Below, piece by piece: positions 41,070 to 41,460 of a stretch of DNA of 64,000 nucleotides (the first letter of the stretch is position 1; each line of letters begins with the position of its first letter). This DNA comes from Caminibacter pacificus (GTDB lineage: Bacteria > Campylobacterota > Campylobacteria > Campylobacterales > Nautiliaceae). The DNA lies in NCBI RefSeq assembly GCF_003752135.1, contig NZ_RJVK01000003.1:1-64000 (forward strand), written 5' to 3'. The position numbers and the translations under genes were made by a program. Under the pieces are notes generated by a model. It was not told the DNA's origin, did no database searches, and saw nothing but the letters and a program-made list of their open reading frames with translations.

Positions 41070-41098
41070 ATTATACAACTTTATACGGTTATTGTCAA
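41070..41098 (-). promoter_or_regulatory. Consensus sigma70 promoter of yfdX
   Basis: On the minus strand TTGACA (41093-41098) and TATAAT (41070-41075) are exact consensus with a 17-bp spacer, 31 bp before the yfdX ATG. The arrangement and distance are the same as at the peroxiredoxin gene. Confidence 0.85.
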
Positions 41099-41252
41099 GA
41101 TAATTGATTATGTAAAGTAATATTTTCTTATTCATAAACGCTAAAGTGATGAAATAGGTAAAGAAGAGGAAGAGATGGGGAAAAGATATGATAACTATGA
41201 TGAAATAGTGAAATTTTGAGTTTGTGAATCAGTAAAATTAAAGATTTGTAAA

Positions 41253-41387
41253 ATTAAACAACCCGAAACAATTGCGAATTTCAATGGAAAAAAAGCGTTA
41301 AAAAAAAGCACTCAAGCTTGAAAAGGTCTGGGCTTTTTAGATTTTTTGTAATGGTCGAAATTTGCTCTCTTGTTGAGGGTGGTTAAT
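41253..41387 (+). repeat. Dispersed structured element, copy 2 (ncRNA-like)
   Basis: Second copy of the element at 1333-1465, in the roughly 420-bp gap between yfdX and the formate-dehydrogenase-like gene. Helices pair 41253-41264 with 41377-41387, AACAA with TTGTT, and 41274-41282 with 41357-41365. The poly-A/poly-U apical stem is kept, though one base next to it (C to A) loosens the outer part. The apical loop is quite different from copy 1 and contains a CAAGCTTG palindrome. TTTTTTT follows the closing helix. AT-rich flanks at about 41195-41250 and 41390-41440 have the same GTGAAAT-type words as copy 1. The rest of the gap (41099-41195) holds nothing else I can identify. Confidence 0.75.
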
Positions 41388-41460
41388 TTTTTTATATGAT
41401 GAATTAGTGAAATGGTAGGTTTATGAAATTACTACCGGAAAAAAAATGAAACCAAAGAAG

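Follow-up and report, generated by a model that had tools for sequence, protein, structure and literature searches.

What kind of object is the long hairpin repeat that occurs twice in one window of Caminibacter pacificus DNA (the window being the whole stretch analysed, 64,000 nt), and does selection act on its RNA, on its DNA, or on both? The original prediction rested on a comparison of the two copies and held that copy 2 differs from copy 1 only where pairing is kept, a pattern attributed to selection on RNA structure. Our answer, with a probability of roughly 0.6, is that copy 2 is a short gene-less derivative of a DNA transposon, MITE-like, with an RNA-like core and a terminator-like apex. 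The larger family to which the two copies belong supplies most of the argument, and its outer and inner parts have to be considered separately.

The two copies in the window

Copy 2 sits between a YfdX-family gene (Pfam) and a molybdopterin oxidoreductase gene. The parts of the locus, together with those of copy 1, are listed by position in the window.

1325-1475, + strand: copy 1 of the repeat (match to model R1 of 138.1 bits, E 7.1e-30; blastn alignment)
1379-1416, + strand: apex of copy 1 (A-tract, stem-loop, T-tract), from sequence and alignment
41070-41098, - strand: perfect sigma-70-type promoter (TTGACA-17-TATAAT, 12/12 consensus match) before the YfdX-family gene adjoining copy 2
41196-41228, + strand: degenerate GTGAAATN octamer array left of copy 2 (wider tract about 41190-41240)
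41245-41397, + strand: copy 2, whole modelled unit (match to model R1 of 136.7 bits, E 1.6e-29)
41248-41264, + strand: left outer arm of copy 2 (terminal inverted repeat region), pairing with 41375-41392; covaries, with no excess of G-U over A-C
41267-41296, + strand: 5' side of the rod formed by the conserved core (AACAA; GCGAATTTC; AAAAAGC); its internal loops are conserved
41300-41338, + strand: apex of copy 2, terminator-like (A-tract 41300-41307, stem-loop, T-tract 41334-41338)
41340-41374, + strand: 3' side of the conserved core rod; an A at 41341 breaks one pair
41375-41392, + strand: right outer arm of copy 2, pairing with the left arm; covaries, with no excess of G-U over A-C
41395-41427, + strand: degenerate GTGAAATN octamer array right of copy 2 (wider tract about 41395-41430)

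The claimed repeat is real: copy 1 (1325-1475) aligns with copy 2 (41245-41397), which is also ~90% identical to other copies in the genome. All three substitutions described between the two copies are present and keep pairing (1349 T/41269 C, 1356 A/41276 G and 1362 T/41282 C), and the A-tracts do differ in length. The 3' arms share an identical run as predicted, although the 46 nt given for it was too short and the run extends over 51 nt (1420-1470 = 41342-41392). Two other statements did not survive the alignment. The copies differ at a site where pairing is lost, since position 41341 is A in copy 2 and C in copy 1, so that one G-C pair in the inner helix becomes G/A; this broken pair is the single 'GA' cell, columns 51-113, of the alignment. 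The apical loops, described as unrelated, can be aligned (AAGCGCGCAGCGGTCC and AAGCTTGAAAAGGTCT) and are homologous, and across the copies in the C. pacificus genome three base pairs of this loop alternate jointly (CGC/GCG, CTC/GAG, CTT/AAG). On their own, three transitions that preserve pairing, seen in two copies, carry little weight, and the folding z-scores of the single copies against shuffles are modest (-2.1 and -1.7). The strength of the case for selection on the fold comes from the larger family, not from these two copies.

Other repeats occur in the same window. Degenerate GTGAAATN octamer arrays lie beside copy 1 too (1286-1320 and 1472-1510), with a period equal to the length of the 8-bp target duplications described below; the octamer pattern has 48 occurrences in the genome versus 1 for a reversed control, mostly away from the repeat. 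At 1-340, regularly spaced repeats (TCTACCTTCTTGGGTAGAAGGTTAATTGGAAAC and variants, with a ~66-nt period) resemble the end of a CRISPR array.

A family dispersed through the Nautiliaceae

A search of the genome of C. pacificus, a deep-sea-vent-type bacterium, recovered numerous copies, of which about ten match copy 2 at 89-92% identity, and a covariance model of the repeat built from 39 copies identified 16 distinct copies there (17 matches, one being the reverse strand of the same place). The same model found family copies in 20 of 21 Nautiliaceae genomes and, among 397 genomes, in a few other Campylobacterota genera, with matches in two other families of the class (f8 and f11); Nautiliaceae MAGs are the named records that carry the core. 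With a unit of ~150 nt that has no coding capacity and is present in many dispersed copies, the family has the makeup of a MITE. Against Rfam, the window gave 0 matches at the gathering score, and a set of six loci, with several copy types among them, gave none at E<=1; 6S RNA or another known RNA was rejected on this ground. The repeat family is absent from Rfam, and would otherwise pass for a regulatory RNA. Plasmid, phage and viral collections also contained no match to the repeat, and carriage by any of these was rejected as an identity. An integron attC site was rejected as well, the copies being dispersed over chromosome contigs with no cassette array. A literature search on such repeats in these bacteria found no papers.

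Evidence for mobility

There is little doubt that the repeat is a mobile element. In copies of the ACTGACTAAATA type, the flanks match at 7 or more of 8 positions at one fixed offset in 13 of 26 cases, 11 of them exactly, against an expectation of 0.12 derived from mismatched flank pairs; these are 8-bp target-site duplications (TSDs). Type D copies in one genome, G159, have 7-bp target duplications. Such duplications belong to related subfamilies, with a length of 8 bp in types A/B and 7 bp in type D; the recent subfamily of C. pacificus itself, which includes both copies in the window, yielded no clear one. The locus of copy 2 has an empty site in five of six congeners (G002-G006), with 57-100 nt between the same two genes. 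This intergenic interval measures 354 nt with the element in C. pacificus and 260 nt in G001, which has its own version of the element. The copies of G000 and G001 have place and orientation in common and differ in their outer arms, which in each case resemble other copies of the same genome. Together the outer arms form the outer helix; they pair and covary as the terminal inverted repeats of a mobile element, and the copies are transposition products.

The distribution of copies also bears on whether the repeat is instead an RNA maintained by host selection (a dispersed small RNA or a cis-regulatory one), for which mobility would be incidental or ancient. Strong conservation of the fold would be expected of such an RNA, and some positions are indeed common to species, such as the one upstream of uvrA in G000 and G002, where the flanks are similar. 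However, copy number ranges from 1 to ~16 per genome, the copies lie in mixed orientation and many at non-shared places, five congeners are empty at the copy 2 locus, and no conserved promoter was seen. We therefore consider this explanation improbable.

Several variants of the element were observed in other genomes. On contig C1 of G159 the type D end is matched 65 times in forward and 62 times in reverse orientation, with many of the matches paired as 164-nt elements, which amounts to a heavy expansion; among the type D end matches listed for this genome there was no parent element and no obvious 1-3 kb pair. Genome G004 contains a minimal copy consisting of the two outer arms only (ACTGACTAAATAAAGTGCATTTAGTCAGT; L254 near 2629, - strand) and a hybrid element that joins a type A left end to a type B right half (L253:3779 onward).

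Two candidate parents were considered and rejected. An IS1595-type parent (PF12762) is absent from the 21 genomes of the Nautiliaceae set, as is an IS6-type parent (PF13610), which had been suggested by the 8-bp duplications and the GG-ACTG ends. Around extra ACTGACTAAATAA or ACTAACTAAATAA sites, inspection of 20 stretches revealed no full-length elements with shared ends, and no ACTGACTAAATAA end pair bracketed a gene in the stretches inspected. The genome of Nautilia profundicola was reported to have no typical transposons and one potential transposase (PMC2628731). The Nautiliaceae are apparently transposon-poor, and because nearly every genome searched carries the repeats, some agent must mobilise them; relatives that have the same fold show no sign of a matching transposase in the searches for PF12762 and PF13610.

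Selection on the fold

A covariation analysis was performed with our own R-scape-like script, not R-scape itself, on 39 copies aligned by sequence only, with a null simulated along the tree of the copies in 300 runs. Summed covariation over the core pairs was 416 versus a phylogenetic null of 102 +/- 30 (maximum 215 in 300), and over the outer arms it was 285 versus 105 +/- 27. When partners were slid by 1-2 columns as a control, the values fell within the range of their own nulls. A screen of all column pairs against each other, which has low power, gave one individually significant pair, located in the helix. In the hand-named structure, double changes were found in 29 of 48 pairs. The claim of structural selection was thus not refuted by this check, since covariation goes far beyond the phylogenetic null. 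An explanation by chance, in which two repeats happened to keep pairing at three sites, could appeal to the weakness of the two-copy evidence, with its folding z of about -2, but it is already refuted at the level of the family, where the observed covariation was reached in none of 500 shuffles and in none of 300 phylogenetic simulations; its probability is negligible. In statistical terms, the fold of the inner ~110 nt is what selection maintains. Selection on RNA structure, as originally claimed, is supported for the core by way of the larger family and is not needed for the outer helix, where terminal inverted repeats can covary without RNA.

Which strand and which molecule

If only double-stranded ends mattered, changes from Watson-Crick to G-U and to A-C should be equally frequent. 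In the core, 75 events to G-U versus 41 to A-C were counted (p=0.002) in alignment A2, which is fitted to the model and to that extent favours G-U over A-C; the sequence-only alignment gives 31 versus 16 (p=0.04). The outer arms have no G-U excess in either alignment (22 versus 34 model-fitted, 8 versus 10 sequence-only). The fold of the + strand is stabler than that of its complement in 75 of 80 copies, by a mean difference of 6.2 kcal/mol. About half of the family A copies were first oriented by sequence, and the preference for the + strand in 28 of 28 copies of families B-D is weaker evidence than that of family A, because orientation in B-D was assigned by the model. Together, the G-U excess and the strand-biased stability indicate that the selected object in the core is one folded strand. 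The outer arms thus have the behaviour expected of DNA ends, whereas the core has that of a single strand that folds.

These results weigh on a plain MITE, one with no RNA function, in which the arms are alike either because a transposase binds both ends or because template switching corrects quasi-palindromes. Such an element would have outer arms that covary with no G-U excess, as well as TSDs and empty sites, all of which are found. It would not account for the excess of G-U over A-C in the core or for the strand-specific excess in stability. The internal loops, moreover, are fixed and persist across genera, which argues against simple palindrome correction, a process that would erase them. 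A plain MITE is consequently an unlikely description of the family.

In folded single-stranded DNA, a G-T pair is better tolerated than A-C. Strand-specific folding is also expected if what folds is single-stranded DNA, the target of a recombinase or an HUH-type transposase in the manner of attC sites or REP elements. The 8-bp and 7-bp target duplications point instead to double-strand insertion at a staggered cut, and the copies are dispersed, not arrayed with cassettes, so we give this reading a very low probability. The selected folded strand is most likely RNA, and RNA-level selection on the core is probable.

The apex as a candidate terminator

Repeat types A-D have a common tip composed of an A-tract, a short covarying stem, a CCCGNNAGGG hairpin, a second small hairpin and a T-tract; the tip in the C. 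pacificus copies is simpler. The T-tract is intact in 69 and the A-tract in 68 of 75 complete copies, with neighbouring stem pairs that change freely, and even in type D, which is GC-rich, the two tracts hardly vary next to stem pairs that covary. A stem followed by a T-tract is what an intrinsic terminator has. The copies show no bias in placement toward gene 3' ends, occurring in all gene arrangements with about six between divergent genes, and a simple terminator scan of both window copies left the apex on the + strand unflagged, called another stem, and found a - strand site in copy 1 only. Judged by its sequence, the apex looks like an intrinsic terminator, a role that we propose tentatively.

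Elements whose arms are unrelated have this same apex. A model built on the tip matched 13 of 397 genomes, namely the relatives already found plus G089, whose copies form a further type. It is conceivable, if rather doubtful, that a conserved branched RNA module, made up of an A-tract, a stem, a CCCGNNAGGG hairpin, a further hairpin and a T-tract, was taken up again and again as the tip of mobile repeats, several in number, that differ in their ends and TSD lengths (8 bp in A/B, 7 bp in D) in vent-type Campylobacterota, where it would serve a shared function, for instance by terminating transcription or recruiting a host factor. In G019 and G015 (L087:3594-3802 and L256 near 2918), the apex is ~90 nt longer, and the added stretch includes an inverted copy of the A-tract/T-tract hairpin motif.

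For copy 2 as a MITE-like element with an RNA-like core, we propose the following account. The outer arms, as terminal inverted repeats, would be used as double-stranded DNA, with insertion resembling that of the related subfamilies and their 8-bp target duplications. Once transcribed from the + strand, the inner ~110 nt would take the form of a long rod whose internal loops are fixed, and the core would act as RNA rather than as single-stranded DNA. The apex, with its A-tract, short stem with a small top and T-tract, may act as an intrinsic terminator, strongest on the + strand and possibly bidirectional. Termination there might halt read-through across the insertion and leave the element harmless in intergenic DNA.

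Comparison with known systems

Bidirectional intrinsic terminators consist of an A-tract, a GC-containing stem and a T-tract. The apex has these same parts and differs in being embedded in a mobile long rod that has no gene-end placement bias. ERIC, BOX and Correia/NEMIS are short mobile or repeated palindromic elements that occupy intergenic DNA in either orientation and whose transcripts fold. The Nautiliaceae repeat resembles them as a short, intergenic, folding repeat found in either orientation, but its hosts are different, its TSDs are 8 bp long, or 7 bp for type D, and its apex is distinct. REP elements share with it the character of a dispersed extragenic palindrome, but they measure 20-40 bp (PMC3733652) as compared with a Nautiliaceae unit of ~150 nt that has 8-bp TSDs in related subfamilies, and a REP element was rejected as its identity on grounds of size. 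The bcr1-bcr3 repeats of the Bacillus cereus group are intergenic and MITE-like, bcr1 being about 150 nt long with a conserved stem structure (PMC3446304, PMC2267715), and in one study 40-51% of all bcr copies lay within transcripts (PMC3446304). Our repeat is like bcr1 in being intergenic, ~150 nt long and MITE-like with a conserved stem structure, a likeness in size and form to the repeats of an unrelated organism. It differs from bcr1-bcr3 in that the Nautiliaceae apex module recurs in elements with different ends and across genera. Its strand-specific fold makes it a concrete example, open to experiment, of a mobile element that carries no gene and is selected for the action of its transcript, and as a MITE-like mobile element with an RNA-like core it is comparable to bcr1 or ERIC.
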